This document shows, one piece after another, positions 5,526 to 21,964 of a stretch of DNA of 36,107 nucleotides. Origin of the DNA: Pseudonocardia sp. (GTDB lineage Bacteria; Actinomycetota; Actinomycetes; Mycobacteriales; Pseudonocardiaceae); assembly GCA_025465235.1 (NCBI GenBank), contig JAODNO010000645.1, positions 1 through 36,107 on the forward strand, read 5' to 3'. Under the pieces are notes generated by a model, which worked only from the letters and a program-made list of their open reading frames with translations, ran no database searches and was not told the origin of the DNA. Position 1 is the first letter of the stretch, and each line of letters starts with the position of its first letter. The position numbers were made by a program, and so were the translations under genes.

Positions 5526-7106
5526 TCAGCTGCCGCTGGTGATGCTGGCGGTCTTGAGCTCGAGGGCGTCGTTGGGCAGGAACACGACTCCCTGCACGCT
5601 CTTGCTCGCCCCGAGCACCAGCCGGTCGTGGAAGAGCACCACATTGTCGAGGTAGGTGTTCTGCAGTTGGACGATCTGGCGGTACAACGTCTTGCGCTCG
5701 TTGGTGTCGGAGGTCGCCGTGGCCTGGGTGAGCAGCGCGTTGAGGTCCGGGTAGTTCGCGTTGCTGTAGTTGATCGTGCTGGTGGGTGACCAGAACACCT
5801 GGATGTTCTGGTCCGGATCCAGCCGGCCGGACCAGGAGTTCATGTAGATGTCGAAGTTCCCCTTCTGGGCATCGTTGCCGGCGGTGACGTTCTCCTCGGG
5901 CTTGATGGTCACGGCGAAACCCGCCTCCTTCGCCATGGACTGGATCACGGTGGCCAGCTTGGTCTGTAGGTCGTCACTGGCACCGATGATGACCGTGACG
6001 GGAATCGGCGTCGGAATGCCGCTCTGCGCCACCAGTTGCTTGGCCTTGGTCAGGTCCTGTCCGGGGCAGCCGGGGTCGGAGTACAGCGGGTTGGCGCTGG
6101 AGATCGGGCTGCACGACGGGTACTCCTGGCCGTTGTAGACGGCCTTGTTGATCGCGTCCCGATCGAGCGAGAGCACGAACGCCTGCCGCAGCTCCTGGCT
6201 CTGTGCGAGCGGCGTGTTCGGGTGCGTGTAGGGCGGCACGCCCGTACCGTGGGTGTTGGCCACGTTGATGGTGAACCCCCGGTAGCCCAACGAGTTCTGC
6301 GTCAGCAGGGTGGTACTCGGATTTCCTTCGATACCGGCCATGTCCGCGGGAGCGATGTCCATCGCGAGGCCGACGTCGCCCGACTTGAGGTTCGTCGCCC
6401 GGATGTTGGGCTGGGTGACCACCTGGAAGGTCACCTGGTTCAGCTTCACCTGGTTCTTGTCGTAGTAGTAGTCCGACTTCTTGAACACGATGCGGTCGCT
6501 GGAGGGCCGTGAATCGAACGAGAACGGGCCCACGCACACCGGTGCGGTACCGAACTGCGCGCCTTCTTTGGTCAGCGCCGTCGGGGAGAGGATCATTCCG
6601 GCGCGATCGGCCAGCACCGACGTCAGTGGCGTGGACGGTGATTTCAGCGTCAGCGTGACGGTGGCGGGATCCGTCACCGAGACGTCCTGGATCGCCGAGA
6701 GATTCGTGACCTGAGCCGAACCCTTGTCGGTCCGCGAGCGATCGAGGCTGGTCTTGACCGCCTGCGCGTCGAAGGGCGTCCCGTCGTTGAACTGGACGCC
6801 GCTTCTCAGCTTGATGGTGTAGGTCTTGCCGTCCGGGCTGACCGTCGGCAGTGCCGTGGCGAGCATCGGCACGATGGTCTGGTCCGGTGTGACAGCGAAC
6901 AGCTTTTCGCAGTACGTCGGCATGATGGCCGCGGCATACCGCGACTGGGTCAGCGCCGGATCGAGCGTGTCGGGAGCCGCGGGAATCGCGACCGTGAGAT
7001 TCCCCGCGGTGCCGGCCGCCCCGGTAGTGCCACCACCCGCCGAACATCCGGCGGCCAGCAGTGCCGCCGCGAACACAAGGGGAGCGAGCCAACGGCGAAC
7101 GAGCAT
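5526..7106 (-). CDS. Substrate-binding lipoprotein of a Dpp/Opp-type transporter (SBP family 5)
   Basis: The 526-residue product has a short basic N-terminus, a hydrophobic stretch and a lipobox LLAAGC with the lipidated Cys at residue 21, so it is anchored outside the membrane. The mature part matches family 5 solute-binding proteins: ILSPDGKTYTIKLRSGVQFNDGTPF-like text is visible as VSPDGKTYTIKLRSGVQF with DG/PFDA following. C-terminal sequence FDIYMNSWSGRLDPDQ is also typical. These proteins bind peptides but also nickel chelates, opines, sugars or drugs. The ATG has a ribosome site (AGGAAA). It is the first gene of the operon. The nearby amidohydrolases hint at an N-containing ligand, but that is inference. 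Confidence 0.92.
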   Translation of the reverse strand: MLVRRWLAPLVFAAALLAAGCSAGGGTTGAAGTAGNLTVAIPAAPDTLDPALTQSRYAAAIMPTYCEKLFAVTPDQTIVPMLATALPTVSPDGKTYTIKLRSGVQFNDGTPFDAQAVKTSLDRSRTDKGSAQVTNLSAIQDVSVTDPATVTLTLKSPSTPLTSVLADRAGMILSPTALTKEGAQFGTAPVCVGPFSFDSRPSSDRIVFKKSDYYYDKNQVKLNQVTFQVVTQPNIRATNLKSGDVGLAMDIAPADMAGIEGNPSTTLLTQNSLGYRGFTINVANTHGTGVPPYTHPNTPLAQSQELRQAFVLSLDRDAINKAVYNGQEYPSCSPISSANPLYSDPGCPGQDLTKAKQLVAQSGIPTPIPVTVIIGASDDLQTKLATVIQSMAKEAGFAVTIKPEENVTAGNDAQKGNFDIYMNSWSGRLDPDQNIQVFWSPTSTINYSNANYPDLNALLTQATATSDTNERKTLYRQIVQLQNTYLDNVVLFHDRLVLGASKSVQGVVFLPNDALELKTASITSGS

Positions 7107-7342
7107 GTATATTTCCTGTCCGTAATGGTCTGCGACAAACCCAAATTCGTTGGGGAGAGGTCAGTTCACGGCGAGACGGAAAGTCGTGACGCGCATGAAA
7201 GAACCTCGATGGGCGTCGCTTGCGACTCATTCAAGAATGAGCGAACCACCACGCCCCTTTCCCGTTGCATTTCCGCAGAACGGCATCCGACGAAAGCCTG
7301 AATCGCAGCACGGTGGTGTCGCGAGCGGGCGTGATCACTCTT
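7107..7342 (-). promoter_or_regulatory. Leader of the ABC importer operon with inverted repeats and a tiny ORF
   Basis: The stretch between the likely promoter and the binding-protein start holds three signals. CTCATTC-AA-GAATGAG (7226-7241) is a perfect 7+7 inverted repeat that looks like an operator. An 11-codon ORF (7196-7161, MRVTTFRLAVN, preceded by GAGG) could be a leader peptide. CCCAA-ATTCG-TTGGG (7140-7154) can form a small hairpin. I do not recognise a known riboswitch. Confidence 0.35.
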
Positions 7343-7365
7343 GTTCTCGACGGCATGCTAGTCAA
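7337..7365 (-). promoter_or_regulatory. Candidate promoter of the ABC importer operon
   Basis: On the minus strand, TTGACT (7365-7360) is followed after 17 nt by AAGAGT (7342-7337). The -10 is weak. The perfect palindrome GTGATCAC (7331-7338) overlaps the -10 and could be a regulator site. The implied 5' leader is about 230 nt. Confidence 0.3.
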
Positions 7366-7392
7366 TATTTGCCTTAGTAAGGAGATGTAACT

Positions 7393-7407
7393 GTAACATC
7401 ACGTTAC
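7393..7407. repeat. Inverted repeat GTAAC-ATCAC-GTTAC
   Basis: A perfect 5+5 inverted repeat with a 5-nt spacer, preceded by one more GTAAC (7387-7391). It lies about 30 nt upstream of the candidate -35 of the transporter operon, a position that suits a regulator-binding site. Confidence 0.35.
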
Positions 7408-7427
7408 GGAGCCGTTGCCAAAGCTGG

Positions 7428-7463
7428 ATCAATCCGGTCAATCCAGTCAATCCAGTCAACTCG
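7428..7463. repeat. Four tandem copies of a 9-nt unit (GTCAATCCA type)
   Basis: ATCAATCCG, GTCAATCCA, GTCAATCCA and GTCAACTCG follow one another without gaps. The period of 9 would be in frame in a coding sequence, but no convincing gene covers it. It may be a slippage-generated minisatellite or direct-repeat binding sites upstream of the transporter operon. Confidence 0.6.
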
Positions 7464-7812
7464 CGCGGTTGCCGCCGTACCTCGTCGCAGCATTCCCGGC
7501 GGGCTGACGGCTTCGCGATCCTCGCGCCCATGACACCCAGGACCACGGAGGACGGTGAGCAGGTCGTGCCGGAACTGCAGCGCCCCGGCCTCTTCCCGCA
7601 CCGAGTACACCGGTCTCGCCGTCCGGCGGCCCGCACCGACGCGCGCTCGCCGTCTGATGCAGGCGGGAGCCGGCCCGCTGCAGCCGCCTCGGGTCACCAA
7701 CCCAGCATCGGACCGGCGCCCGCCACACCTGCCTGCAACTCGTCCCCGCCCGACGAGCAAGACCCGTGACTCGACCTGAGCAAGTGCCTCTAGTCGACAG
7801 TGGACGGATCAG
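7464..7812. other. Intergenic stretch with no recognised gene
   Basis: Several overlapping open frames exist on both strands but none has a ribosome site, a consistent codon bias or a recognisable family. One minus-strand segment (about 7630-7545, text PVYSVREEAGALQFRHDLLTV) looks somewhat protein-like and could be a gene remnant; I cannot identify it. Confidence 0.3.
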
Positions 7813-7836
7813 CACCCCGACGTCGTCGTCGGGGTG
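7813..7836 (-). terminator. Perfect 9-bp stem-loop directly after the acetamidase gene
   Basis: CACCCCGAC (7813-7821) and GTCGGGGTG (7828-7836) are exact reverse complements around a 6-nt loop. The hairpin abuts the TGA of the acetamidase/formamidase gene, the position of a terminator. It has no U-tract. Confidence 0.6.
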
Positions 7837-8988
7837 TCAGCGGGCGCGGTCGAGGATCCGGCGGGCAAGCCCGCTGCCGGAGCCGGGTGGGAAGTCGGCG
7901 ACGCGGATCGAGCCGTGCACCCCGGTGACGAGGTCGACGGCCTGGGAGACGTCGAAGTCCGTCGCCGCGCTGAGGTAGAGGTAGGCCTGCTGTGGGTCCA
8001 TGTCGAACAGGGCGGTGACGAGCTCGACCGCGTTGCCGACGCACATGCGCAGGGCCCGGCCCAGGTCCTCGTCCATGCCGGTCGGGACGATCAGCCCGTG
8101 TCCGGCGGCGAACGGACCCTCGACTCCGCCGAGCTTGTGCCGGACCTGGGCGGCGGGGATGAGGTCGACCGTCAGCGACGCCCGCAGCGGGGCCTCCAGA
8201 GCGGTCAATGCGACCTCGCCGTTGCCCTGGGCGTAGTGCGGGTCGCCCACATAGAGCAGGGCGTCGGGCACCTGGACCGGCAGGAAGAGGGTCGCGCCGG
8301 GAGTCAGCAACCTGATGTCGATGTTCCCGCCGTGCAGGCCTGGCGGAACCGAGTGGGCCCGGGTCTCGGTGTCGGTGGCGACCCCGATGATGCCGAGGAA
8401 CGGGGCCAGCGGGAAGCGGGCCACCTCGTCGCCGTCGGCCCGTAGGGGCATGGTGCCGAACCACGCGCCGTCGAACTCACGCACGGAGCAGAAGGCGCTG
8501 TATCCGTCGTCCAGCTTGGGGTGCCCGGTGAGTACACCCCGTCCGTGCCGGGTGGAGACGACACCATAGGGAGCGCGCATGCGCAGGTCGTCGACACAAA
8601 CGGCGAGCAGGTCTCCCGGCCGGGCGCCGTCGACGGCGATCGGACCGGTCACGATGTGCGGCCCGTCGATACGGGGATCGCGGCGACGGCGCGCGGTCAC
8701 CTCGATCGCGTCGGCGAGCACCTGGTCGGGCGAGACGCCGTGCCGGCCGAAGTACCCGACCGGATCCGATCCTTGGTCCTCGAGGATGCCCTCGTGGCTG
8801 ATGGTGTCGACCACGACATGATCGCCGGCGCCGATGCGTGCCACCGGGGCTTCGGACCGGTGGGGGAGTCGTCCCCACATCACCCGGCCGGGATCCGCGG
8901 GGACGTAGACGATGCCGCCGTCGACCTCCGCCCCTTCCTGCAGGACGGGGAACGCGCCCATGGCCGGGCCGGGAAACGTGGTGGTCAT
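7837..8988 (-). CDS. Acetamidase/formamidase family protein
   Basis: This 383-residue cytosolic enzyme matches the FmdA/AmdA family, which hydrolyses formamide, acetamide or related small amides to the acid and ammonia. The strongest block is GGNIDIRLLTPGATLFLP followed by GDPHYAQGNGEV, close to the family signature. HEGILEDQG near residue 65 and the VTGPIAVDGARPGD block are also typical. GGAAGG precedes the ATG by a good spacing. A GntR regulator gene lies 190 nt upstream on the same strand, and a terminator-like hairpin follows. In context it could release ammonia and formate or acetate late in the breakdown of an N-containing compound; the substrate is unproven. Confidence 0.9.
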   Translation of the reverse strand: MTTTFPGPAMGAFPVLQEGAEVDGGIVYVPADPGRVMWGRLPHRSEAPVARIGAGDHVVVDTISHEGILEDQGSDPVGYFGRHGVSPDQVLADAIEVTARRRRDPRIDGPHIVTGPIAVDGARPGDLLAVCVDDLRMRAPYGVVSTRHGRGVLTGHPKLDDGYSAFCSVREFDGAWFGTMPLRADGDEVARFPLAPFLGIIGVATDTETRAHSVPPGLHGGNIDIRLLTPGATLFLPVQVPDALLYVGDPHYAQGNGEVALTALEAPLRASLTVDLIPAAQVRHKLGGVEGPFAAGHGLIVPTGMDEDLGRALRMCVGNAVELVTALFDMDPQQAYLYLSAATDFDVSQAVDLVTGVHGSIRVADFPPGSGSGLARRILDRAR

Positions 8989-9179
8989 CGAAGTGCCTTC
9001 CGTGGGTGGTCGGTGCCCGTTCGCTCCCCCTGCTCCGGAGGCTCCGCTGGGCGGCGATCTCGAGTGGTTGTGCCCACATCAGCCGGCGAGGTCCCTGTCG
9101 TTGTCCGGGCCGGCAGGGGTCGATGTGCTCGAGGTGCCCGTCGGTGGCCCGGCGCAGGGAGATGCGCTGGTCGCTGCCG

Positions 9180-9860
9180 TCAGTGAGCGGCGCGGTAGGT
9201 CTGCATGGCTGCCTTGACGTGCTCCTCCGCGGCGCGGCGGGCCGCGTCCTCGTCACCGTTGACGATGGCTTGGCAGATCTCCCGATGCTGAATGATCACG
9301 GTCTTCGACCAAGCCGCATCCGACAGGTTCGAGACCGTCGACACCGCAATCCTGTCCCATACCCGATGCAGGGCGTCCTCGATGAAGGGGTTGCCGGGGG
9401 CACGCCCGAAGGCCCGATGGAACGCCAGGTTGGCACGGGCGGAGCGCTTCGCGTCGCCCTCGGCCACGGCCTGCTCGACCTCGTCAGCCGCGTCCTGGAT
9501 GCCGCGGATCTCCGCAGGGGCGATCTGACCTGAGACCTGCCGGCGCGCCGCCTGCGCGGCAGCGAGCCCTTCCAGGGCCGCTCGCAGCTCGTAGATCTGC
9601 TCGATCTCGGCGCTGTCGAGCGTCGCCACTGCGACCCCCCGCGCCGCAGGCACCACCAGACCGTCCGCCTGTAGCCGTCCGAGTGCCTCCCGGACCGGGG
9701 TGCGACTCACCCCGAGCTCCTGCGCCAGCGCGGTTTCCGTGAGCCGCTCGGCCGGCGCCAGGTCCCCGTCCCCGAAGCGCCTGCGCAGGACCGTGTACAC
9801 CGCCTGCGCACTGCTCGACGCCGCCCCCAGATGTTCCACAGCGAAGAGCATACGGTGCAT
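9180..9860 (-). CDS. GntR-family regulator, FCD subfamily
   Basis: The 226-residue protein has a winged HTH (about residues 16-80, motif GVSRTPVREALGRLQADGL) and an FCD domain. In the metal site the usual Asp is Asn (N-x3-H in RANLAFHRAF), followed by His in IQHREI and EEHVKA. ATG 9860 or ATG 9851 are the plausible starts; both lie inside a cluster of CATAC repeats. It is divergent from the amidohydrolase operon and upstream of the acetamidase gene, so it probably controls both. Its C-terminal half (NPFIEDALHRVWDRIAVS) closely resembles the regulator at 17448-18143 (NPFLQDALDRLWSRIAIS), implying paralogy. Confidence 0.9.
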   Translation of the reverse strand: MHRMLFAVEHLGAASSSAQAVYTVLRRRFGDGDLAPAERLTETALAQELGVSRTPVREALGRLQADGLVVPAARGVAVATLDSAEIEQIYELRAALEGLAAAQAARRQVSGQIAPAEIRGIQDAADEVEQAVAEGDAKRSARANLAFHRAFGRAPGNPFIEDALHRVWDRIAVSTVSNLSDAAWSKTVIIQHREICQAIVNGDEDAARRAAEEHVKAAMQTYRAAH

Positions 9861-9908
9861 ACGACCCCGGACACCAACGCTTGACATACGCTGCATGCAA
9901 TGCATACT
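9848..9908. promoter_or_regulatory. Divergent control region: TTGACA/CATACT promoter and four CATAC repeats
   Basis: On the plus strand TTGACA (9881-9886) is followed after 16 nt by CATACT (9903-9908), a good promoter for the amidohydrolase operon. The region has GCATACG at 9848-9854 and 9857-9863, ACATACG at 9884-9890 and GCATACT at 9902-9908, plus the palindrome TGCATGCA (9892-9899). Two of the repeats overlap the promoter hexamers and two overlap the start of the divergent GntR gene. This suits repression of both directions by that regulator. Confidence 0.5.
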
Positions 9909-9930
9909 TTCCGCCTTGTACGGAGGTGGA

Positions 9931-10170
9931 ATGAGCATCGGAGCGCGCCTCGAACTGGCACTCGTCGCGCCCCGCACGCGCAGTTGCCTTCGTGTCCCTC
10001 ACCTCGGTGGCCTGGGGTCCGGCGGTGTTGCCGGCTGCAACGGGTCTGTCGGTGGGCGGCTTGGTGTGCTGGCCGCCCGACGCATCTCGCCGGCCGCACT
10101 CCGCTGGACGGGCCGCCGCCTGGGTTGTGGATGCGCTATCGCCCTGGAGGTGGGCAGGCATGTTTCCTGA
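9931..10170 (+). CDS. Possible 79-codon leader ORF overlapping the amidohydrolase start
   Basis: ATG 9931 follows a very strong ribosome site (GGAGGTGGA) located about 15 nt after the candidate promoter. The frame runs to TGA at 10168-10170, 11 nt past the amidohydrolase ATG at 10160, so it could couple translation. Against it, third-position G/C is roughly 72% by my count, below the neighbours, and the sequence (Arg-, Gly- and Cys-rich) matches nothing I know. A shorter leader peptide or plain untranslated leader is equally possible. Confidence 0.3.
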   Translation: MSIGARLELALVAPRTRSCLRVPHLGGLGSGGVAGCNGSVGGRLGVLAARRISPAALRWTGRRLGCGCAIALEVGRHVS

Positions 10171-11512
10171 CACGGATCTGCCCGCACGAGAGAACCTGGT
10201 CCTATCCGGCGTAACGGCGGTGACGATGGATCCGCGGCTGGGGGATCTGGAGCGCGCCACCGTGACGGTGGAGGCCGGTGTGATCACCGCCGTGTCCACC
10301 GAACCGGTGGATGTGGCCGCTGGGCCGGACACCACGGTGATCGACGGGAAAGGCCTTGTGGCGCTGCCCGGCTTCGTCGACACCCACTGGCATCTGTGGA
10401 ACAGCCTGCTCCGCGGCACCGTCAGCGACGCTCGCGATCGCGACTACTTCTCCGTGAAACGTGGTCTGGGCCCGCACCACGATCTCGAGGACTTCTATTG
10501 GGCGGCGCGGTTCGCGCTCGCTGAGGCGGTGACCGCCGGCATCACCACGGTGCACAACTGGGACCACAACGTCCGGTCCGCCGAGGACGCTGACGTGAAC
10601 GTTCGCGCCCAACTCGACGCGGGTGTCCGTGGCAGGTTCTCCTACGGCCCCCGGGACTCCACGCCCGCGGACCAGTCCATGGACCTCGACGACCTGCGCC
10701 GGTTCGCCGACCGCTGGCCCGCAGCCCGCGTCGACGGCCTGCTGGACTTCGGGGCGGCGCTGCGGGGCCCGTACCGGACGCCCGGGGAGGTCTATCGGCG
10801 CGAGTGGGCGACCGCGCGCGAGCTGGGCCTGCCGATCACCATGCATTGCGACCGCTGCCTGCGCGAGGACGGATGCCGCTCCTGCGGTCTCACGCGGCTT
10901 GCCGACGAAGGGCTGCTGGGTAGCGACGTCCAGATCGTCCACGCCGTGCACGCCTCGGAACGCGACATCGCCGCCTTGGCCGCCACGGGGACCCACGTGT
11001 CACTGAGCCCGATCACCGAGCTACGCACGATGGGGTTCCCGCTGGTCACTGAGCTGATCGCGGCGGGGGTGCCGGTCTCGCTGTCGACGGACACGCTGGC
11101 GATGCCGACCGCTCCCGACGTGCTCACCACGCTCCGGGCCGTGGAGGCCGTGGAGGCCGCCCGGTGTGGGTCGTCCGCAGTCAGCCCGCGCAGGCTCCTG
11201 CAGATGGCGACCATCGACGGCGCCCATGACCTCGGGCTCGGTGGGGTGACCGGGTCGATCACCCCGGGGAAGCGGGCAGATCTGCTGCTGCTCGACGCGG
11301 GCGCCTCCAACCTGCTACCCGGGGGGGACGTCGTCGAGGCGCTCGTTCGTCAGGGCAGGGCCACGGACATCGTCACCGTCGTGGTCGACGGCCGGATCCT
11401 CCTCGAGGGCGGCCACCTCACCCAGCCGTCGGCCCGCGCCGCGATCTCCGGCGCCGACGAACGACGGGACGCCCTGATTGAGCGTGCCCGCGCGGCCGGT
11501 GACTGGGCATGA
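10160..11512 (+). CDS. Amidohydrolase-superfamily enzyme (cytosine deaminase/ATZ-TRZ type)
   Basis: The 450-residue enzyme shows the complete metal-dependent amidohydrolase pattern. The HxH pair is in LPGFVDTHWHLWNSLLRGT (His76, His78). Further His residues occur in TMHCDRC and VHAVHAS, and the catalytic Asp is in SLSTDT. The C-terminal block GSITPGKRADLLLLD closes the composite beta domain. Such enzymes deaminate or dechlorinate N-heterocycles or hydrolyse cyclic amides in the cytosol. ATG 10160 is preceded by GGAGGTGGG; the frame is open further upstream but that part is not protein-like. It leads an operon with an MFS transporter, a FAH-family hydrolase and a PuuE-like deacetylase, so a heterocyclic or amide substrate imported by the transporter is likely. 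The exact substrate is unknown. Confidence 0.88.
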   Translation: MFPDTDLPARENLVLSGVTAVTMDPRLGDLERATVTVEAGVITAVSTEPVDVAAGPDTTVIDGKGLVALPGFVDTHWHLWNSLLRGTVSDARDRDYFSVKRGLGPHHDLEDFYWAARFALAEAVTAGITTVHNWDHNVRSAEDADVNVRAQLDAGVRGRFSYGPRDSTPADQSMDLDDLRRFADRWPAARVDGLLDFGAALRGPYRTPGEVYRREWATARELGLPITMHCDRCLREDGCRSCGLTRLADEGLLGSDVQIVHAVHASERDIAALAATGTHVSLSPITELRTMGFPLVTELIAAGVPVSLSTDTLAMPTAPDVLTTLRAVEAVEAARCGSSAVSPRRLLQMATIDGAHDLGLGGVTGSITPGKRADLLLLDAGASNLLPGGDVVEALVRQGRATDIVTVVVDGRILLEGGHLTQPSARAAISGADERRDALIERARAAGDWA

Positions 11513-11555
11513 CTCGATCCCTTGCCACTTCGACGATCACCTTAGGCGGTAATAG

Positions 11556-12806
11556 ATGACCACGAGCGCTGTGCCGACGGGCCCGGCAACAGAGCGCGTC
11601 GCGAACGGGCCCGCCATCGCGATGTTCGGGCTGCTCCTGCTGGCCTACTCGGTGAACGCGATGGACCGCATGGTCTTCCCGGTCATGCTTCCCGAGGTCA
11701 GCGCCGAGTACGGGTTCAGCCTCGACCAGTCCGGGCTCCAGTCCACGATATTCGCGCTCGGCATGGGGATCACCGGAATCCCGGCGGGGATCGCGCTGGC
11801 CAGGTTCGGCCGAAAGGCCCTGATCGTCGTCGGTACAGCGGCTTTCTCGGTGGCCACGATCATGACGATCGCGAGCACGGGCTTCGCCGACATGCTGGCA
11901 TGGCGGGTGCTCTCCGGCGTCGGGGAGGCCCTGCAGCTGGCCGCGATCATCACCGTGGCGGCCGCGGCGTTCCCGCGGCATCGCGGGCTCGCCATCGGGG
12001 CGGTGAACATGGCGTTCGCCACCGGCTCGGTCGTCGGGCCCTTGGTGGCGGCGGCCTTGCTGGTACACCACGGGACCTGGCGCTCGCCGATGATCGTCTT
12101 CGGGGTCGCCGGACTGGTCGTGACCGTCGCAGTCATTCTCTGCGTGTCGCGCCGGTTCACCGAGGTGACGGCGGCGCCCATGCAGGCGCACCACGTCGGC
12201 GGGGCCCGATCGGTGTTGCACTGGAATCCGATGCTCCTGGCCGTGATCACAGTGCTGTTCGGGCTGGTCGACTTCGCCTACATCGGCCTGTACGCGACTT
12301 ATCTGCGTCAGGAACTCGGTTTCACGCCCGGGCAGGCGGCGCTCGCGGTGGGCCTGTCAGGTCTGGCCGCGTTCGCCTCGCCGCTGGGCGGGCTGCTCGC
12401 CGACCGGCTCGATCCCCGCATCTGCCTGGGTCTACTGAACCTGTTGACGGCCGCAGCCGCGGCCGGCTTGTTCCTCGGGCCGCCTTCGCCGGGATGGCAG
12501 GCGGTGTTCTCCTTCCTGTTCGGGCTCTTCGCCAGCAGCGGTGTGTACGTCGCCTTGGCCGGTCTGCTCGTGAAGTCGGTGCATCTCGACATCGTGGGGC
12601 ACGCGTCGGGCGTGTTCATCACTTGCATCTACGTCGCCGCGGGACTCTCGGGCTATTTGTTCAGCCGCATCGTGAACGGCGCCGGCTGGGCCGGCGCCGG
12701 GCTGGTGCAGATCGTTGGCTTCTCGGCGGTAGGAGCGCTGCTGGCCGTGTTCCTGCGCCCGGCTCTGTTCAGCACCACCGCGCACACCGGATCGGAGATC
12801 TCATGA
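11556..12806 (+). CDS. MFS transporter
   Basis: The 416-residue protein has about 12 hydrophobic segments. The first helix contains AYSVNAMDRMVFPV and the loop after helix 2 carries a motif-A variant (GIALARFGRKALIV). SGVGEALQ lies in helix 4. This places it among anion or aromatic-acid type importers. It lies 43 nt after the amidohydrolase gene and overlaps the FAH gene by 4 nt. It closely resembles the MFS protein at 14956-16248 in the same segments (AINAADRQVFPV, SGVGESLQ), so the two are paralogous. It probably imports the substrate of this operon. Confidence 0.9.
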   Translation: MTTSAVPTGPATERVANGPAIAMFGLLLLAYSVNAMDRMVFPVMLPEVSAEYGFSLDQSGLQSTIFALGMGITGIPAGIALARFGRKALIVVGTAAFSVATIMTIASTGFADMLAWRVLSGVGEALQLAAIITVAAAAFPRHRGLAIGAVNMAFATGSVVGPLVAAALLVHHGTWRSPMIVFGVAGLVVTVAVILCVSRRFTEVTAAPMQAHHVGGARSVLHWNPMLLAVITVLFGLVDFAYIGLYATYLRQELGFTPGQAALAVGLSGLAAFASPLGGLLADRLDPRICLGLLNLLTAAAAAGLFLGPPSPGWQAVFSFLFGLFASSGVYVALAGLLVKSVHLDIVGHASGVFITCIYVAAGLSGYLFSRIVNGAGWAGAGLVQIVGFSAVGALLAVFLRPALFSTTAHTGSEIS

Positions 12807-13510
12807 CCCTGCTGTTCACCCCACCGACCGTCTTCGTGCCGGTCGCCGGCTCCGACCAGCGGTTCCCGGTGCGACGGATCGACTGCGTTGGCCGCAACTA
12901 CGTCGTCCACGTCCGGGAGATGAAGGAGGGCGACGAGCGCGACGACCCCTTCTTCTTCCAGAAACCGACCGACAGTGTCGTCGGGGACCGAGCTCGCGTG
13001 CCTTACCCACCTCGGACCGGCGACTTCCAGTTCGAGGGCGAGCTCGTGGTCGCGATCGGCGCCGACGGGGCGGACGTCCCTGTGAGCCGCGCCCTCGACC
13101 TGGTCCTCGGCTATGCCGCCGGCATCGACCTGACCCGGCGCGACCGGCAGCGCGACTGCCGGGAGCGGCAGATCTCCTGGGAGGCGGGCAAGGCCTTCGA
13201 CGCCTCCGCACCTTGCGGACCGATCACTACTCGTGAGGAAGCCGGCGACATCGCCGGAGCGGGTCTGCAGGTGACAGTCAACAGCGAAGTCCGCCAGCAG
13301 ACCCGGATTGCACTGATGATCTGGGACGTCGCGGAGATCATCGCCCACCTGTCCGGCGATTACCGCCTCATGCCAGGAGACCTGATCTACACCGGCACGC
13401 CCGCCGGGGTCGGCGCGGTCGTTCCCGGCGACGAGATCCGGGTCGACATCGACGGCCTGGAGCCCCTGTCCATCAACATCACCGAGAGCGGGAGCCATGC
13501 AACCAAATGA
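12803..13510 (+). CDS. FAH-family hydrolase, fumarylpyruvate-hydrolase-like
   Basis: The 235-residue product has the fumarylacetoacetate-hydrolase fold. The text RRIDCVGRNYVVHVREM, DDPFFFQKPTDSVV and GIDLTRRDRQ strongly recalls fumarylpyruvate hydrolases of the gentisate pathway. Metal ligands are likely Glu78 and Glu80 (FEGELV) and Asp109. GYRLMPGD-like and IYTGTPAGVGAV blocks end the domain. Such enzymes cleave a C-C bond in diketo acids to give pyruvate or a related acid. ATG 12803 overlaps the MFS stop by 4 nt. No gentisate dioxygenase or isomerase is nearby, so the substrate may be another acylpyruvate. Confidence 0.88.
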   Translation: MTLLFTPPTVFVPVAGSDQRFPVRRIDCVGRNYVVHVREMKEGDERDDPFFFQKPTDSVVGDRARVPYPPRTGDFQFEGELVVAIGADGADVPVSRALDLVLGYAAGIDLTRRDRQRDCRERQISWEAGKAFDASAPCGPITTREEAGDIAGAGLQVTVNSEVRQQTRIALMIWDVAEIIAHLSGDYRLMPGDLIYTGTPAGVGAVVPGDEIRVDIDGLEPLSINITESGSHATK

Positions 13511-14405
13511 GCGCATCGACTACGACCCGATCGAGGGCCGGGCAGCACTGCACCTCCCGGGAGGAGCGCGCGTCGCAGTCTGGCTGATCGTGAACGTGGA
13601 GGAATGGTCGGCGACCGAACCGATGCCGCGTACCGTCCTCACCCCGCCGGCCGGGGGCGTGCCGACACCGGACGTCCCGAACTGGGCCTGGCACGAGTAC
13701 GGCAACCGCGTCGGGTTCTGGCGGCTGCTCCGTGTCATCGACCGGCACGCGATACCGGCAGCGCTCGCCGTCAACGGGTCGGCGATCGGTGCCTACCCAC
13801 AGATCACCGAGGCGGCGATCGCCCGGCGGTGGGAATTCATCGGACACGGCTTCACCCAGAAGAACATGCAGAAGGTGCCCGACGAGCGGCTCGATATCCA
13901 GCTGACACGCGACGCGATCGCCGCGGCGACCGGCCGCAGGCCGCGCGGATGGCTCGGCCCCGGTCTCACCGAGACATGGGAGACCCCCGACCTGCTCGTC
14001 GAAGAGGGTTACGACTACGTGTGCGACTGGGTGCTGGACGACCAGCCGACCGTGCTACGCACCCGGGGCGACCGGATCGTGAACGTGCCGTACACCCAGG
14101 AGTGCAACGACGTCGCGATGATGCTCATCCAGCACCACACCGCCGACGAGTACCGACGCCGGGCCATCGACCAGTTCGACCAGATCCTCGCCGACGCGCG
14201 AGCAGACGACTCCGCGCGCGTGATGGCGCTGGTCGTGCACCCGTACATCATGGGAGCGCCGCATCGGCTGAAGTACCTGGACCTGGCACTCGAGCACATC
14301 CGGGGTCACGACGAGGCGACGTTCTGCACGGGCGAGCAGATCCTGGACTGGTACCGGACGGCCGAGTTGACCGCTGATGGGCGGGTCGTGGAAGACGTGA
14401 GCTGA
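13497..14405 (+). CDS. Polysaccharide-deacetylase-fold hydrolase (PuuE allantoinase/HpPgdA type)
   Basis: The 302-residue protein has the NodB-like fold in the PuuE/HpPgdA branch. EYGNRVGFWRLLRVIDRH and the following AALAVNGSAI are characteristic, as are EFIGHGFTQKN and GWLGPGLTETWETPDLL. The usual early Asp pair is replaced by VNVEEW, as often in this branch. Members hydrolyse allantoin, cyclic imides or N-acyl groups. The gene overlaps the FAH gene by 14 nt and is the last of the operon. A role in opening a cyclic amide or imide, or removing an N-acyl group, fits the amidohydrolase partner, but this is inference. Confidence 0.85.
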   Translation: MQPNERIDYDPIEGRAALHLPGGARVAVWLIVNVEEWSATEPMPRTVLTPPAGGVPTPDVPNWAWHEYGNRVGFWRLLRVIDRHAIPAALAVNGSAIGAYPQITEAAIARRWEFIGHGFTQKNMQKVPDERLDIQLTRDAIAAATGRRPRGWLGPGLTETWETPDLLVEEGYDYVCDWVLDDQPTVLRTRGDRIVNVPYTQECNDVAMMLIQHHTADEYRRRAIDQFDQILADARADDSARVMALVVHPYIMGAPHRLKYLDLALEHIRGHDEATFCTGEQILDWYRTAELTADGRVVEDVS

Positions 14406-14485
14406 CGCTTGGTGCGCTTCGGATTGTCCGGCGCGGCTGCCTGGACCAGGCTGTAGATCGTGAGGCTGTCGGAACTTGGCTCACG

Positions 14486-14660
14486 TCATGCGGCCCGCCG
14501 ATATTCGTGGAGGAGGCCGCCGAGCCGGTCGTGGCGGCGGACGCCGCGGGTGAGGTCGGCCTGGCGGTGTTCCGGGTTCGCGCGCAGGGGAGCGACCGAT
14601 CCGGTCGAGGAGTTTGCGGCGGGTGCTGCGCACGAATCGCTCGGTGATGAGAAATCGGAA
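14486..14660 (-). pseudogene. Decayed transposase remnant (C-terminus of an IS481/IS3-like integrase-core protein)
   Basis: On the minus strand one frame reads LITERFVRSTRRKLLDRIG (14654-14595), like the stretch after the catalytic core of DDE transposases. After a frame change, NPEHRQADLTRG and GGLLHEYRRAA lead to a stop at 14486-14488; the last piece is the usual IS481/IS3-type C-terminus. The expected middle section (HYNxHRPH type) is missing, so there is both a frameshift and an internal deletion. A possible element end, TGTAGATCGTGAGG, starts at 14453. No second end is visible. It marks a past insertion between two catabolic clusters. Confidence 0.6.
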
Positions 14661-14720
14661 GCGCCTGCCGGCATCGGCCCTTTATCAGTCCATGATGGAC
14701 ACCGCGAAAACTAGTCGTAA

Positions 14721-14747
14721 CAACTTCGCGGTTCCTCGCGCGAGTTG
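14721..14747. repeat. Stem-loop CAACTtCGCG...CGCGcgAGTTG
   Basis: The arms at 14721-14730 and 14737-14747 pair over 9 positions with a small asymmetric bulge around a 6-nt loop. It lies in the gap between the transposase remnant and the second MFS gene. It could be a terminator or a leftover of the mobile element. Confidence 0.3.
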
Positions 14748-14820
14748 CTGTAGCGAAGCTCGAAACCCGTTGCGACGACTCCGGGCGGCACCACGCATCT
14801 AGGACGCGGTTGTATCTTTG

Positions 14821-14837
14821 GCATACCTGGTATACCG
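14821..14837. promoter_or_regulatory. Candidate GntR/FCD operator GCATACC-TG-GTATACCG
   Basis: GGTATACC (14829-14836) is a perfect palindrome, preceded by GCATACC (14821-14827). GGTATACC-type sites are known for FCD GntR repressors such as UxuR/ExuR and NanR. The GCATACC heptamer recurs at 17386-17392 upstream of the GntR gene at 17448. This MFS gene may therefore belong to that regulator's regulon. Confidence 0.45.
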
Positions 14838-14955
14838 TCCTGCGGAAGATCGAGTGCGTCGGCCGAGGTCGTGCACCACCATACCTGTGAATGTCGTGAG
14901 GACCTGGTCAATCGACAGAACTTCGTCTTTCACCCGACATTGCTGAGGAGCAGAC

Positions 14956-16248
14956 ATGAGCCAGGTCTCGTCGGAGGCGGTTCGGACCTCAGGGGGCCCA
15001 CCTCGATCCTGGCGCGCCACCGCTATCGCGATCGTGGTCCTCGTGGTTCTCGCCGCGTCATACGCGATCAACGCCGCCGACCGGCAGGTCTTCCCGGTGC
15101 TGCTCAGCTCGATCAACAAGCACTATGGCTTCCCGCTCGCAGCGGGCGGCTTCCTGTCGACGATCTTCACGCTCGGCATCGGGATCGGCGGCATTCCCGC
15201 CGGCCGGCTTCTCGACCGCCTGTCCCGCAAGACTGTGATGCTGATCGGAATCGCGGTCTACTCCGCCTTCACGATCCTCACCCCGCTCGCTTTCGGCTTC
15301 GCGGATATGGCGGCCTACCGCACGATGTCCGGGGTCGGCGAGTCGCTGCAGAACGCCGCACTGTTCTCCGCTGTCGGCGCCTACTTCTACGCGCGCAGAT
15401 CACTCGCGCTCGGGGTACTGAACGTCTCCTATGGGATCGGTAGCGCCCTCGGACCGCTCATCGGGGCGCGACTTTTCACCGCAAGCGGGAGTTGGGCCCT
15501 ACCGCTCTACGTCTTCGGGATCGCCGGATTCCTCTTCGTCCTCATCATTCTGCTGACGGTCAACAAGGCTTACACGGAGGCCAAGGACACCGGGCGCGAG
15601 CAACCAGGCGCCGGAGACGACAGCTCACCACTGCCTGGGACGCTACTCAACCGAACCACTGTCTTCCTGTGTCTGGCGTGTGCAGCCGGCGGCCTCTCGC
15701 TCTATAGCTACCTCGGGTTGTATCCGACGTTCCTGCAAAGTCATCTCGGCCTGAGCGTGAACGACTCCGGCCTGGCCGCGTCCATGTTCGGGATCGGCTC
15801 ACTGGTAGCGAGTATCCCGTCCGGCTACCTGGGTGACCGCTTCGGAAACCGCATCATTGTTCAGGTCTCCTTTCTCTGCGCCATCGTTGTCGCAGCGCTG
15901 ATGTTCATGGTCGCCACCAGCACGGCCGAACAAACGGTACTGTCATTCCTCGAGGGCGCGTTCGGTAGCGGATTTGTCTACGTCAACCTCTACGCAGCAT
16001 TGCAGCGTTCGATTCATCCATCGCTGGTCGGGCGCGCGTCCGGCGCCTTCGTGACGTTCTTCTACTTACCCTCCGCAGTCGCGGGCTATCTCTTCGCTCA
16101 ACTCGTCAATGCCACCGGGTGGGCCGGCGCCGCAGTCGTGCAGCTCATGTTCTTTCCGCTGGTCGGCGCGATCCTGATGATATTCGTCCGGATCCCGGAG
16201 CGGACGGTTGGGACGCCCAGGGCGACTCGAACCGCGACCACGAGTTGA
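14956..16248 (+). CDS. MFS transporter (paralogue of the one at 11556)
   Basis: The 430-residue protein has about 12 membrane segments. SYAINAADRQVFPV opens helix 1, the motif-A loop reads AGRLLDRLSRKTVML, and a second motif-A-like loop after the central region reads GYLGDRFGNRIIV. A hydrophilic linker (about residues 205-225, rich in Glu, Asp, Ser) separates the two halves. GAGGAG precedes the ATG. It lies 27 nt before an amidohydrolase gene on the same strand and is probably co-transcribed with it. Its G+C content is visibly lower than that of the molybdenum-hydroxylase genes downstream. Confidence 0.9.
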   Translation: MSQVSSEAVRTSGGPPRSWRATAIAIVVLVVLAASYAINAADRQVFPVLLSSINKHYGFPLAAGGFLSTIFTLGIGIGGIPAGRLLDRLSRKTVMLIGIAVYSAFTILTPLAFGFADMAAYRTMSGVGESLQNAALFSAVGAYFYARRSLALGVLNVSYGIGSALGPLIGARLFTASGSWALPLYVFGIAGFLFVLIILLTVNKAYTEAKDTGREQPGAGDDSSPLPGTLLNRTTVFLCLACAAGGLSLYSYLGLYPTFLQSHLGLSVNDSGLAASMFGIGSLVASIPSGYLGDRFGNRIIVQVSFLCAIVVAALMFMVATSTAEQTVLSFLEGAFGSGFVYVNLYAALQRSIHPSLVGRASGAFVTFFYLPSAVAGYLFAQLVNATGWAGAAVVQLMFFPLVGAILMIFVRIPERTVGTPRATRTATTS

Positions 16249-16275
16249 CCGGACAACGCCGCAGAAAGGCAGAGC

Positions 16276-17286
16276 GTGGAAACGACAGAGTTCCGAGATC
16301 TACATGCGCACTATTTGGCGCCCTCCACCATCGATCGCATCCGGGCAGGCGAGTTCGCGCCGGCGGTGACGCTGTCCGACGTGGACGGCCGAGCGCGGTT
16401 CACCTTCCCGACCGGGGCGACGCGCACCATGCTTCCCGCGATGGCCGACCTCGACGCGCGACTTCGCCATCTTGATCAGTGCGGGATCGACATCCAGGTG
16501 CTCTCCACCTGGATCGACATGTTCGGCTACGACCTGCCGGAAGAACTCGCAGTCAGCTACCACAAAAGTATCAACGAGGGTCTCGCGGAGGCGGTGTCGT
16601 CCCATCCCGACCGTTTCCGGTTCTTCGCAAGCGTGCCTCTTCCCTGGGGGGACGCCGCGGCAGCCGTCCTCGAAGACGCCATGACGAGGCTGGGCGCGGT
16701 GGGCAGCATGATCGGCACGAACGTGCACGGCCGGTATCTTGACGACGAGCGGCTGGCGCCGTTCTGGCAGGCCAGCGAACGGTTGCACGCGCCTGTCGAG
16801 TTGCATCCGGTCAATGTCGCAGGCGCGGATCGGCTGCGCGGCGACGAGCTCTCGAACTTCCTCGGCAACCCGTTCGACACCACGATCGCCGCGAGCTCGC
16901 TCATCTTCGGCGGCGTACTCGACCGCCATCCCGGACTTCGTTTCGTGCTGGTTCACGGGGGCGGATACCTGCCCTATGCCGTCGGACGGCTGTCGCACGG
17001 CCGGGCGGCGCGCGGGGTTGCGCCAGAGCTGCTCCGCGGGCCCGAGGACTACCTCGACAGGTTCTTCTTCGACACCGTCGTATACAGCCCCGCGGTGCTC
17101 AGTGCGCTCGCGTCGATCGTCGGCGTGGAACGACTCGTGCTCGGCACCGACTACCCGTTCGACATGGAGCCGCCCGCCGTCCGCTCGATGGTCGCCGACA
17201 CGCTTGGTGAGCCCGCGTTGGTGCGGATTGCTCGGACCGCCCGGAGCGTCAGTTGTCGACACGACGAGACGGAGGCGGGTGGGTGA
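16276..17286 (+). CDS. Amidohydrolase family 2 (ACMSD-like) metal-dependent hydrolase/decarboxylase
   Basis: The 336-residue enzyme has the family layout: HAHY near the N-terminus (His10, His12), a His in VELHPVNV, a His in LVHGGGYLP and Asp in GTDYPFDM. This group includes aminocarboxymuconate-semialdehyde decarboxylase, aromatic acid decarboxylases and some lactonases. GTG 16276 is preceded by a modest AAGG site. The C-terminus lacks the usual NAxRLF ending and instead reads IARTARSVSC, which may be natural variation. It is paired with the MFS gene upstream. A role in decarboxylating or ring-opening the imported compound is plausible. Confidence 0.87.
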   Translation: METTEFRDLHAHYLAPSTIDRIRAGEFAPAVTLSDVDGRARFTFPTGATRTMLPAMADLDARLRHLDQCGIDIQVLSTWIDMFGYDLPEELAVSYHKSINEGLAEAVSSHPDRFRFFASVPLPWGDAAAAVLEDAMTRLGAVGSMIGTNVHGRYLDDERLAPFWQASERLHAPVELHPVNVAGADRLRGDELSNFLGNPFDTTIAASSLIFGGVLDRHPGLRFVLVHGGGYLPYAVGRLSHGRAARGVAPELLRGPEDYLDRFFFDTVVYSPAVLSALASIVGVERLVLGTDYPFDMEPPAVRSMVADTLGEPALVRIARTARSVSCRHDETEAGG

Positions 17287-17435
17287 GCTCGGACAGCGGC
17301 GGCGCGGTCGTCCTGGCCCGAGATCGGATCGTTCCCATTGCACCACGTGAGGGTGACTCCGAGCGGCGGGCTCGAAAACAGATGCGCATACCGCTGTACC
17401 ATAACCACTGCTCTCGATATCGTCGGAGCCGTCGA

Positions 17436-17447
17436 TATACTCCGGCG
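17436..17447 (+). promoter_or_regulatory. -10 element consistent with a leaderless GntR-hydroxylase transcript
   Basis: TATACT (17436-17441) lies 6 nt before the ATG of the GntR gene and no ribosome site precedes that ATG. Transcription should start at or beside the A of the ATG, giving a leaderless mRNA, which is common in actinobacteria. The -35 is not clear. GCATACC (17386-17392) and CGATATCG (17414-17421) upstream are possible operator parts. Confidence 0.45.
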
Positions 17448-18143
17448 ATGAGCCCGAGATCAGTGACAGCCCAGGCGGTCGAGAGTCAGGCGGATGTCGC
17501 TTACCGGGCGATCTACGACCTGGTCCTCCGCAGCCGCGCGAACGCGAATGCCGTGTGGTTTGAGCGCCAACTCAGCGACCAACTGGGAATGGGCAGAACG
17601 CCGGTGCGCGAGGCGCTCAAGCGGCTGCAGAACGAGGGCCTGTTGGTGCCGGTCTCCGCGCACGGTGGCCTCGCGGCCGCCACGATCTCCACCGCTGAGG
17701 TCGCTAACGTCTACCGGGTGCGCGCTGTGTTGGAGGCGCTCGCCGCAGAGCTGGCCGCCACCCGTTCCGCTGCCGGCGAGCTGTCCCGTGCCCAGCTGAG
17801 CGAACTTCGTCGACGTGCCGAGGCGATCAAGGAGTGCGCCGCAAACCGGGACCTGGCAGGGGTCTCCGAGGTGAATCACCAGTTCCACGAGTACGTCAAC
17901 GTCCTGGCCGCAAACCCGTTCCTGCAGGATGCGCTGGATCGGCTGTGGAGCCGCATTGCCATCTCCGCCATGAGGAACATCATCGACGATGACGCTTGGG
18001 TGACAGAGATGCATGTGCATCATGATGATCTCGTGCGGCTGATTACGGAGGGTGACGCAATCGGTGCGTCGGCGATCGCGCGGCGGCACACCGAGCGAGC
18101 TCGCGAAGTCTATGCAGCCCACCACGGCGAGGCGACGAGGTGA
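17448..18143 (+). CDS. GntR-family regulator, FCD subfamily, first gene of the molybdenum-hydroxylase operon
   Basis: The 231-residue protein has a winged HTH (about residues 15-80, motif GMGRTPVREALKRLQNEGL) and an FCD domain. The metal-site pattern is N-x3-H (VNHQFHEY), then His in VHHDDL and ARRHTE. ATG 17448 was chosen because it gives the standard N-terminus and sits just after a TATACT box; a frame open from 17253 is not protein-like upstream. Its TGA overlaps the GTG of the large hydroxylase subunit by 4 nt, so it is translated with its likely target operon. Sequence similarity to the regulator at 9180-9860 indicates paralogy. Confidence 0.9.
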   Translation: MSPRSVTAQAVESQADVAYRAIYDLVLRSRANANAVWFERQLSDQLGMGRTPVREALKRLQNEGLLVPVSAHGGLAAATISTAEVANVYRVRAVLEALAAELAATRSAAGELSRAQLSELRRRAEAIKECAANRDLAGVSEVNHQFHEYVNVLAANPFLQDALDRLWSRIAISAMRNIIDDDAWVTEMHVHHDDLVRLITEGDAIGASAIARRHTERAREVYAAHHGEATR

Positions 18144-20488: not shown

Positions 20489-21402
20489 AACCGGCACCCT
20501 TCGACTACGCGGCACCGGCGGAGCTGACCGACGCCGTCACCGCGCTGGCCGAACGGCCCGAGACGGCCCGCGTGCTGGCGGGCGGCCAGAGTCTCGTGCT
20601 GGACATGCACTACCGCCGGGAACGACCGGCCCTGCTGGTCGACATCAACAATGTGCGCGGCCTGGACGTGATCACGGTGGACGGCCACACGCTACGGATC
20701 GGCGCCCTCGCCCGGCACCGCGCCTTCGAGACGCCGACCGTGGCGCCGGCGGCGCTGGGGCGGCTGCTGAGCCGGGTGAGTCCGTACATCGCGCATCCGC
20801 CGGTACGCGCGCGGGGAACCATGGCCGGGAGCCTGGCCTGGGCCAACCCGGTCTCTGAGTGGTGCGCGACGGCGGTCGCCCTCGACGCCGGGATCGAGCT
20901 GACCGGGCCCCTGGGTAGGCGCCGGGTGCCGGCTGGCGACTTCTTCGTCGGCCCCTTCCGGACGGCGCGGCAGCCGGCCGAAATCCTGACCTCGGTGCTG
21001 CTGCCACTGCTGCCCGGGCAGGTCGGCGTCGGATTCTGCGAGCAGCGCCGTACGCACGCCAGCTTCGCCCAGGTCGCGGCCGTCGCGGTGCTGACCCTGC
21101 GGGACGGCGTGATCGCCGAGGCGCGGCTGGGGCTGGCCGGGGCGGCGGACCGGCCGGTGCGCGCGCACGACGCGGAGCGCCACCTGGTGGGCAGGGAGGC
21201 CGAGCCTGAGGTGTTCGCCCAGGCCGGCGAACTCGCCGCCGCCGGTTCGGATCCGCTCGCCGAGCCGCATGCCGGCGTGGAGTACAGGCGGCACGTAGTG
21301 GGCGTGCTCGTACGGCGCGCGCTGGCGCAGGCGCGCGAGGACAGCAACGGCAACTACGGCGACGAGGGTCGCGATCGACACGAGGGCCGGGAGGCACGAT
21401 GA
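20485..21402 (+). CDS. Molybdenum hydroxylase FAD-binding subunit (CoxM-like)
   Basis: The 305-residue product begins KPAPFDYAAPAELTDAV and carries the FAD-binding motif AGGQSLVLDMHYR (residues about 35-47). The second motif of this family, usually TIGGSLAHADPAAE, appears as TMAGSLAWANPVSEW, so the flavin site looks intact though variant. It passes electrons from the iron-sulfur subunit to an acceptor. ATG 20485 follows GGAGGTGGG and overlaps the large-subunit stop by 4 nt; it ends in an ATGA overlap with the Fe-S gene. Confidence 0.92.
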   Translation: MKPAPFDYAAPAELTDAVTALAERPETARVLAGGQSLVLDMHYRRERPALLVDINNVRGLDVITVDGHTLRIGALARHRAFETPTVAPAALGRLLSRVSPYIAHPPVRARGTMAGSLAWANPVSEWCATAVALDAGIELTGPLGRRRVPAGDFFVGPFRTARQPAEILTSVLLPLLPGQVGVGFCEQRRTHASFAQVAAVAVLTLRDGVIAEARLGLAGAADRPVRAHDAERHLVGREAEPEVFAQAGELAAAGSDPLAEPHAGVEYRRHVVGVLVRRALAQAREDSNGNYGDEGRDRHEGREAR

Positions 21403-21908
21403 CAGGGCGGACTCCGGTACGGCTGACGGTCAACGAGACCGACTACGACGTGACGGTCGAGCCGCGCCGGTTGCTGGCCGACGTGCTGCGCGAGGACTGC
21501 AACCTCACCGGCACCAAGCTCGGCTGCGAGCACGGGGTGTGCGGATCCTGCACCGTGCTGGTGGACGGCGAGGGGGTGCGCTCGTGCCTGATGTTCGCGG
21601 TGCAGTGTGCGGGCCGCGACATCCGTACGGTCGAGGGGCTGGCGGCGCACGGCCGGCTGCACGCCTTCCAGCAGGCGATCTCCACCGAGCACGGCCTGCA
21701 GTGCGGCTTCTGCACCGCCGGGTTCGTGATGCTGGTGGTCGGTGCCCTGGAGGACGACCCCAGCATCGCCGAGGATCCCGAGCGTCTGGACGGGCTGCTG
21801 AGCTCGAACCTGTGCCGCTGCACGGGCTATGAGGGCATCCGTCGCGCAGTGCTGCGTGCGTACGGCAGGAACGGCACGCACGAGAAGGACGGCGCCGAAG
21901 GGCACTGA
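21399..21908 (+). CDS. Molybdenum hydroxylase 2Fe-2S subunit (CoxS-like)
   Basis: The 169-residue protein binds two 2Fe-2S clusters. Cys43, Cys48, Cys51 and Cys63 (CEHGVCGSC plus a distal Cys) form the plant-ferredoxin-type site. Cys102, Cys105, Cys139 and Cys141 (CGFC and CRC) form the second. All eight are present, so the electron chain looks functional. Length is usual for the family. It overlaps the FAD-subunit gene by 4 nt and is followed after 56 nt by the M24-like gene. Confidence 0.95.
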   Translation: MTGRTPVRLTVNETDYDVTVEPRRLLADVLREDCNLTGTKLGCEHGVCGSCTVLVDGEGVRSCLMFAVQCAGRDIRTVEGLAAHGRLHAFQQAISTEHGLQCGFCTAGFVMLVVGALEDDPSIAEDPERLDGLLSSNLCRCTGYEGIRRAVLRAYGRNGTHEKDGAEGH

Positions 21909-21964
21909 ACGGATCCCCCGCCTCCGTCCCGCTCGCCCCAACGCCTTTCCCCGAGGAGACCGCA

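Follow-up and report, generated by a model that had tools for sequence, protein, structure and literature searches.

The locus examined here raises the question of what four closely packed genes, encoding an amidohydrolase (AH), an MFS transporter, a protein of the FAA-hydrolase family (FAH), and a PuuE-like protein, accomplish together. The genes lie on the plus strand of a 36,107-nt stretch of Pseudonocardia sp. DNA (the whole of contig JAODNO010000645.1, C546 in our numbering; hereafter, the window), which belongs to a 6.8-Mb assembly of 731 contigs that is 89% complete. Mapping of the open reading frames reproduced the spacing given in a first-pass annotation of this DNA (a 43-nt gap, followed by overlaps of 4 nt and 14 nt), and every product scored above its Pfam gathering score (Amidohydro_1, 106.9 bits; Polysacc_deac_1, 39.5 bits; the other two scores are listed in Table 1). 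The ATG of AH at 10160 sits within a longer open frame that begins at 9992. The same annotation had read the genes as one catabolic operon, and the conserved gene order, a local operator-like site, and purifying selection all point the same way. By sequence comparison, the operon is a real, conserved, and mobile unit, which recurs in other actinobacteria, on plasmids as well as in genomes, and partly in proteobacteria. It is reasonably likely to serve the breakdown of a small compound that contains nitrogen, probably a cyclic amide or imide, under local regulation, and to spread horizontally. It would represent a compact, often plasmid-borne breakdown route without an assigned substrate, which occurs in Actinomycetota and is rearranged in Pseudomonadota.

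The pairing of the FAH and PuuE genes was found to be the most constant element. The collection that was scanned held at least 80 PuuE loci, and adjacency was counted in the 78 with at least 300 bp of upstream sequence (L089, where the contig ends in an FAH fragment, and L102 had too little sequence to be counted). Among the loci listed, FAH lay immediately upstream of PuuE, on the same strand, in 43 of the 78, which argues that the packing is not due to chance. Within 6.5 kb of PuuE, the 43 FAH-linked loci contained matches to MFS in 20 cases, TauE in 13, AH in 13, and the GntR regulator in 12; weaker TauE matches of 38-40% in L096 and L068 were left outside the TauE count. The order of a divergent GntR gene followed by TauE, AH, MFS, FAH, and PuuE is annotated in Streptomyces plasmid records, and was recovered by tblastn in Amycolatopsis, P. 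spinosispora, Arthrobacter, Mycolicibacterium brisbanense, two Nonomuraea, and Stackebrandtia. The neighbourhood search that the first-pass annotation had proposed as a check thus returned one gene order from Pseudonocardia, Amycolatopsis, Streptomyces plasmids, Nonomuraea, and Arthrobacter. In three loci of Streptosporangiaceae (L049, L052, and L059), the GntR gene is placed downstream.

The best plasmid matches to the window PuuE were four Streptomyces records (88%), followed by Cupriavidus, two Variovorax, and Arthrobacter records (70-74%), and the next match beyond these eight stood at 48.5%. FAH was directly upstream of PuuE in all six plasmid loci examined among the eight best (L040-L044 and L046). 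The three Variovorax/Cupriavidus plasmids examined all keep FAH, PuuE, MFS, and TauE, together with an AH of their own, which is 32-36% identical to the window AH (the L041 and L042 copies are 74-80% identical to that of L043), and they carry a helix-turn-helix regulator, apparently of the AraC type, where the GntR gene stands elsewhere. In many proteobacteria, the FAH-PuuE pair is flanked by a second PuuE-like gene, an ABC transporter, and isochorismatase-like and FrsA-like hydrolases. FAH and PuuE thus form the core, around which other genes vary; the pair is also present in one acidobacterial metagenome-assembled genome (L090). In L029 (genome G045), FAH, PuuE, MFS, GntR, and the operator-like site are kept, and the GntR and MFS genes are separated by only about 70 bp, too little to hold AH or TauE; searches of L029 found neither of the two, and the best AH match elsewhere in the G045 genome was 36%. 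In the Variovorax plasmid copy L043, toxin-antitoxin genes and aadA flank the operon (7198-8713 and 18531-19113), a setting that fits a mobile element.

A search of 100 genomes, the window's own included, returned a PuuE-fold match in 61, and close matches only in G010, a genome of the same genus (88%), and G045 (83%); the remaining matches were 45% or less over the full length, or 47% over a part. Across 396 genomes of the phylum, again counting the window's own, only two others matched at 1e-60 (six candidates were scored for each genome in the rows listed). The scarcity of close matches in both samples indicates a patchy distribution. A tree was built from 91 PuuE rows, with a bootstrap that was not fully settled; it placed the window's PuuE among 17 rows, each of them from an actinobacterium and linked to FAH, with support of 99/92. 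The FAH label required 15 changes on this tree, compared to 30.2 in shuffles, a value reached in none of 500 shuffles, which address only the clustering of the label. Ratios of nonsynonymous to synonymous substitution (dN/dS), calculated against L048, L047, and L040, were 0.17-0.23 for AH, 0.18-0.21 for MFS, 0.16-0.30 for FAH, and 0.10-0.12 for PuuE, indicating purifying selection on all four genes.

The divergent GntR gene is 70-78% identical in L027, L029, and L040. Its open frame reaches a GTG at 9977, but alignments with relatives begin only at residues 25-40, which places the true start probably near 9851-9860 or slightly upstream. The intergenic stretch contains TTGACA, followed by TGCATGCAATGCATAC, and TTGACA or TTGACG is present at the operon promoter of most relatives. 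All 14 other actinobacterial loci carried the operator pattern upstream of the operon with no more than two mismatches, a count that includes the near copies L044 and L083 and has no shuffled control; the best match had no mismatch in five loci, one in six, and two in three. At zero mismatches, the pattern occurs once each in the genome of the window (G000), G010, and G045, always at the operon promoter, and at two mismatches G000 has three further sites, including the one at the GntR gene start. When only the window was shuffled, 5 of 100 shuffles equalled its two matches at up to three mismatches. The divergent GntR gene and the operator-like site suggest one locally regulated operon, with TGCATGCAATGCATAC as the predicted GntR operator. 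A single conserved site of this kind could serve directly as a reporter in a search for the inducer, and would thereby make the substrate testable. A search of 8900-15100 for terminator-like sites found none beyond PuuE; its sole match is within the MFS gene, and does not exceed the number in shuffles (1, compared to a mean of 1.4).

Table 1. Predicted features of the operon and its promoter region, in window coordinates.
Feature	Position	Strand	Basis
GntR/FadR-type (FCD) regulator	9180..9860	-	Pfam GntR 54 bits, FCD 89 bits
Second operator-like site, 2 mismatches, at GntR gene start	9847..9862	+	Pattern search
Promoter-like TTGACA-16-CATACT	9881..9908	+	Sole promoter-like match in 8900-15100 (shuffles: mean 0.4, standard deviation 0.7)
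Operator-like site TGCATGCAATGCATAC, covering spacer and -10	9892..9907	+	Conserved upstream of operon
tauE remnant, last ~60 codons, two frames	9980..10167	+	61-70% identity to TauE of L047, L048, L040
AH, cog0402/PRK08204-like fold without the deaminase Glu	10160..11512	+	Pfam, profiles, fold, alignment
HCDRCLREDGCRSC, AH residues 229-242: predicted metal ligand H229 and CxxC-x5-CxxC	10844..10885	+	Alignment
MFS transporter, putative substrate importer	11556..12806	+	MFS_1 198.3 bits
FAA-hydrolase-family C-C hydrolase (fumarylpyruvate hydrolase/FAHD1-like)	12803..13510	+	FAA_hydrolase 188.5 bits, profile matches
PuuE-like C-N hydrolase (polysaccharide-deacetylase fold)	13497..14405	+	AlphaFold2 model, structural match to 3cl6

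A profile of the FAH alignment (A2) matched the structures 6j5y (1.5e-85), 4maq (6.9e-77), and FAHD1 (6fog; 3.2e-51), and FAH aligned with all three through the active site, where H36/E39, E78/E80/D109, and K130 (which presumably have their usual roles in the family) match FAHD1 and are invariant in A2. By its Pfam score, and by its catalytic and metal residues, FAH falls in the acylpyruvase branch, and its earlier description as a C-C hydrolase for acylpyruvates is consistent with fold and residues alike; a difference from FAHD1 and fumarylpyruvate hydrolase is that the window's operon contains no gentisate-pathway gene. The MFS protein is weakly similar to aromatic-acid/H+ symporters (67, compared to a cut-off of 418.55), and its direction of transport is putatively inward.

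The AlphaFold2 model of the PuuE-like protein (predicted local distance difference test, pLDDT, 87.0) superimposed on the PuuE allantoinase 3cl6 with a Z of 32.1 (root-mean-square deviation 2.1 over 280 residues, 24% identity). Z values of 32.1 to 3s6o, 31.8 to 1z7a, and 28 to 3rxz and 3qbu followed, and then 18.9 or less. The modelled fold is of the PuuE type, and not that of an open CE4 deacetylase. H117 and Q121 (H117-x3-Q121) were invariant in 42 PuuE rows, so that the protein lacks the second His with which CE4 enzymes bind their metal, and in this resembles PuuE, which passages of PMC3084791 describe as not binding the metal bound by HpPgdA. The assignment of an allantoinase/imidase-like C-N hydrolase, made in the first-pass annotation, therefore agrees with the modelled fold and with these residues. 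The protein scored under the cut-offs of both NCBIfam families that it matched, and a plain allantoinase was rejected on its score of 115.1 against the TIGR03212 allantoinase cut-off of 424.6. Among the conserved neighbours inspected around window-type PuuE genes, no purine-pathway gene was present, which is a further difference from PuuE allantoinase. According to PMC9304392, HxnM of the Aspergillus nidulans nicotinate pathway, a cyclic imide hydrolase, has the same wider fold and opens the C-N bond of a cyclic imide, but its nearest structural relative is HpPgdA, which binds a metal; the text of PMC9304392 makes no mention of an FAA or fumarylpyruvate hydrolase.

AH departs from its family at the active site. 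Its AlphaFold2 model (pLDDT 86.8, from a 13-row alignment; residues 231-240 are of low confidence, 63) matched cog0402 enzymes with Z values of 40-43, including 42.8-43.2 to 3hpa, 4dyk, and 4gbd, and its score of 355.3 fell below the cut-off of 391 for NCBIfam PRK08204 (NF006056). The cog0402 ligand pattern is present, with H76, H78, H229, H261, and D311 invariant in alignment A4; we take these to be the HxH pair, the beta-5 and beta-6 His, and the beta-8 Asp. Three positions beyond the beta-5 His, the catalytic Glu is replaced by R232 in the window and in all 17 actinobacterial-type rows, and is also absent from all four Variovorax/Cupriavidus rows. Among the 23 remaining aligned rows, those outside the operon-type AH and its four Variovorax/Cupriavidus counterparts, Glu is kept in eight (seven loci; HLAE, HAAE, or HGSE) and absent in 15, indicating that its loss is common to a wider group than the operon AH. 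In all 17 actinobacterial-type rows (of which L027, L048, and L133 are one locus, and L040/L046 and L044/L083 are near copies), the loop reads HCDRCxRExxCx[SA]C, given in full for the window as HCDRCLREDGCRSC. Its four cysteines are invariant in the 12 actinobacterial rows of A4, where these are the sole columns with Cys in at least three rows. The loop is a predicted binding site for Zn or Fe, and provides a concrete lead towards an unusual active site. The open-licence papers of PubMed Central (PMC) that matched a search for cysteine motifs in amidohydrolases included, among the matches listed, none with an amidohydrolase term. A more far-reaching possibility, tentative and on the doubtful side, is that AH founds an amidohydrolase subgroup in which the Glu loop has become a tetra-cysteine metal site beside the catalytic metal, with new chemistry (a different bond, possibly redox), and starts an undescribed cyclic-amide pathway that ends in pyruvate.

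The analysis shows the gene set, its conservation, the conserved promoter site, purifying selection, the folds, and the residues; from these we infer repressor binding, the order of steps, the direction of transport, and the chemistry. The GntR repressor would sit on the operator over the promoter until the substrate or an intermediate frees the promoter. The compound would be imported by the MFS protein, and AH would make a first hydrolytic cut, other than an ordinary deamination. PuuE would then hydrolyse a cyclic amide- or imide-type C-N bond to give a 2,4-dioxo acid, and FAH would split the resulting acylpyruvate into pyruvate and a second acid. FAH and PuuE would be the fixed lower core, with AH and TauE as upper or accessory parts.

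Several points weigh against this scheme. Linear amides are also possible substrates of PuuE-fold enzymes, decarboxylation and hydration are among the reactions open to FAA hydrolases, and the order of the AH, PuuE, and FAH steps is not readable from sequence. No FAH match was found in 37 of 80 PuuE loci, some of them on short contigs, so PuuE can work without FAH. Beside FAH-PuuE, AH is absent in L029, L096, and most proteobacteria. At two mismatches, the operator pattern was less frequent than a reversed control in G010 (1 compared to 3), and only slightly more frequent in G000 (4 to 2) and G045 (3 to 1); the weight of the operator rests, accordingly, on its conservation at one place, rather than on the rarity of loose matches.

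Alternative routes account for parts of this evidence. The first-pass annotation had AH deaminate a ring compound, PuuE open the ring, FAH release pyruvate, and an acetamidase encoded nearby finish the breakdown. The deaminase fold of AH speaks for such a route, but R232 occupies the position of the deaminase Glu, which 8 of 23 other rows keep and the Variovorax/Cupriavidus counterparts likewise lack, so that deamination by AH was not sustained. The acetamidase lies outside the conserved unit: an AmdA match at 1e-10 was found in none of 88 loci (one partial match, at 3e-7, in L041), so that it was rejected as a member of the operon and its role as the finishing enzyme was not supported, and the route as a whole is improbable. 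In a ureide or pyrimidine route, PuuE would open a ring resembling uracil, orotate, or hydantoin, the carbamoyl group would be lost from the ureido acid, and FAH would serve as a decarboxylase or hydrolase of the oxaloacetate type. In favour of this route, relatives among the proteobacteria also have an isochorismatase similar to RutB/biuret hydrolase and an ABC substrate-binding protein similar to UrtA (with scores far under the cut-offs), and pyrE adjoins PuuE in L113 and L120 (the L113 score was 352, compared to a cut-off of 245). The isochorismatase-like, UrtA-like, and pyrE genes are all outside the window's operon, however, and the pyrE link is seen only in these two loci, which belong to a single small clade that lacks FAH; we regard this route as unlikely, though less so than deamination.

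The kpi 4-hydroxypyridine cluster of Arthrobacter sp. IN13 is among the closest described assemblies of genes, as far as the relevant passages and gene table of PMC7356986 go. It combines KpiC (sequence MT469879), an Amidohydro_1 protein reported to open 3,4-dihydroxypyridine, with KpiD, an FAA hydrolase of proposed function, and FadR- and AraC-type regulators. By analogy, AH, which lacks the hydrolase Glu, would be a ring-opening oxygenase like KpiC, and FAH a 3-formylpyruvate hydrolase like KpiD. KpiC was reported, however, to be nearest to P9WL22, P50045, and enamidase, and not to cluster with MTA/SAH deaminases, whereas AH falls with the cog0402 deaminases (a comparison by description only). 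In addition, kpi includes a monooxygenase and an alpha/beta hydrolase, with no PuuE/polysaccharide-deacetylase protein in its gene table, while the operon has no pyridine monooxygenase, making a pyridine route very improbable. The lum riboflavin/lumichrome cluster resembles the operon as a multi-hydrolase breakdown of an N-ring with an unassigned FAA hydrolase, LumV, but the P450, Rieske dioxygenase, and catechol dioxygenase described for lum in the passages of PMC12746152 have no counterpart in the operon, and this route was rejected. A paper describing the AH-MFS-FAH-PuuE set was not found among open-licence PMC papers, in keeping with the first-pass statement that the genes match no named pathway.

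Between the GntR and AH genes, where relatives have an intact tauE, the window has only the remnant listed in Table 1, one frame of which was also found by the genome search (64% at 10024-10164). Elsewhere in the same genome, contig C720 carries a TauE-like gene (41%), and C258 carries part of one. The apparent decay at 9980-10167 may be an assembly error. TauE prompted consideration of sulfonate breakdown, which was set aside, as nothing further pointed to sulfonates.

Upstream of the GntR gene, the acetamidase/formamidase-family gene (7837-8988, minus strand) lies beside a gene for a family-5 ABC solute-binding protein (5526-7106). Downstream of PuuE, the stretch 14956-23179 looks like another catabolic unit, with an MFS protein and a GntR regulator 40% and 36% identical to those of the first block, an Amidohydro_2 protein, molybdenum hydroxylase genes (18140-21908), and an M24 peptidase (21965-23179). 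The block 14956-21908 and the M24 gene were not adopted as part of the operon. The operator-like site was not found in the second block, and Amidohydro_2, the hydroxylase, and M24 had no match at 1e-10 in the examined flanks of actinobacterial operon loci. Near PuuE, hydroxylase-subunit matches were present in 10 of 88 loci, and Amidohydro_2-like matches in 11, all proteobacterial; a functional link between the operon and the second block may exist. Near a PuuE tandem, L113 (10880-12678) and L126 (13350-14470) carry a sulfopyruvate-decarboxylase-like thiamine pyrophosphate pair of about the size of LumK/LumL. In the proteobacterial loci L060, L071, L082, L112, and others, FAH-PuuE belongs to a larger cluster (about 6.4-18 kb), which contains an FrsA-like hydrolase, an isochorismatase-like protein, a second PuuE, FAH, PuuE, an ABC transporter, an amidase-like protein, and Amidohydro_2, and which is probably a separate, apparently unnamed pathway.

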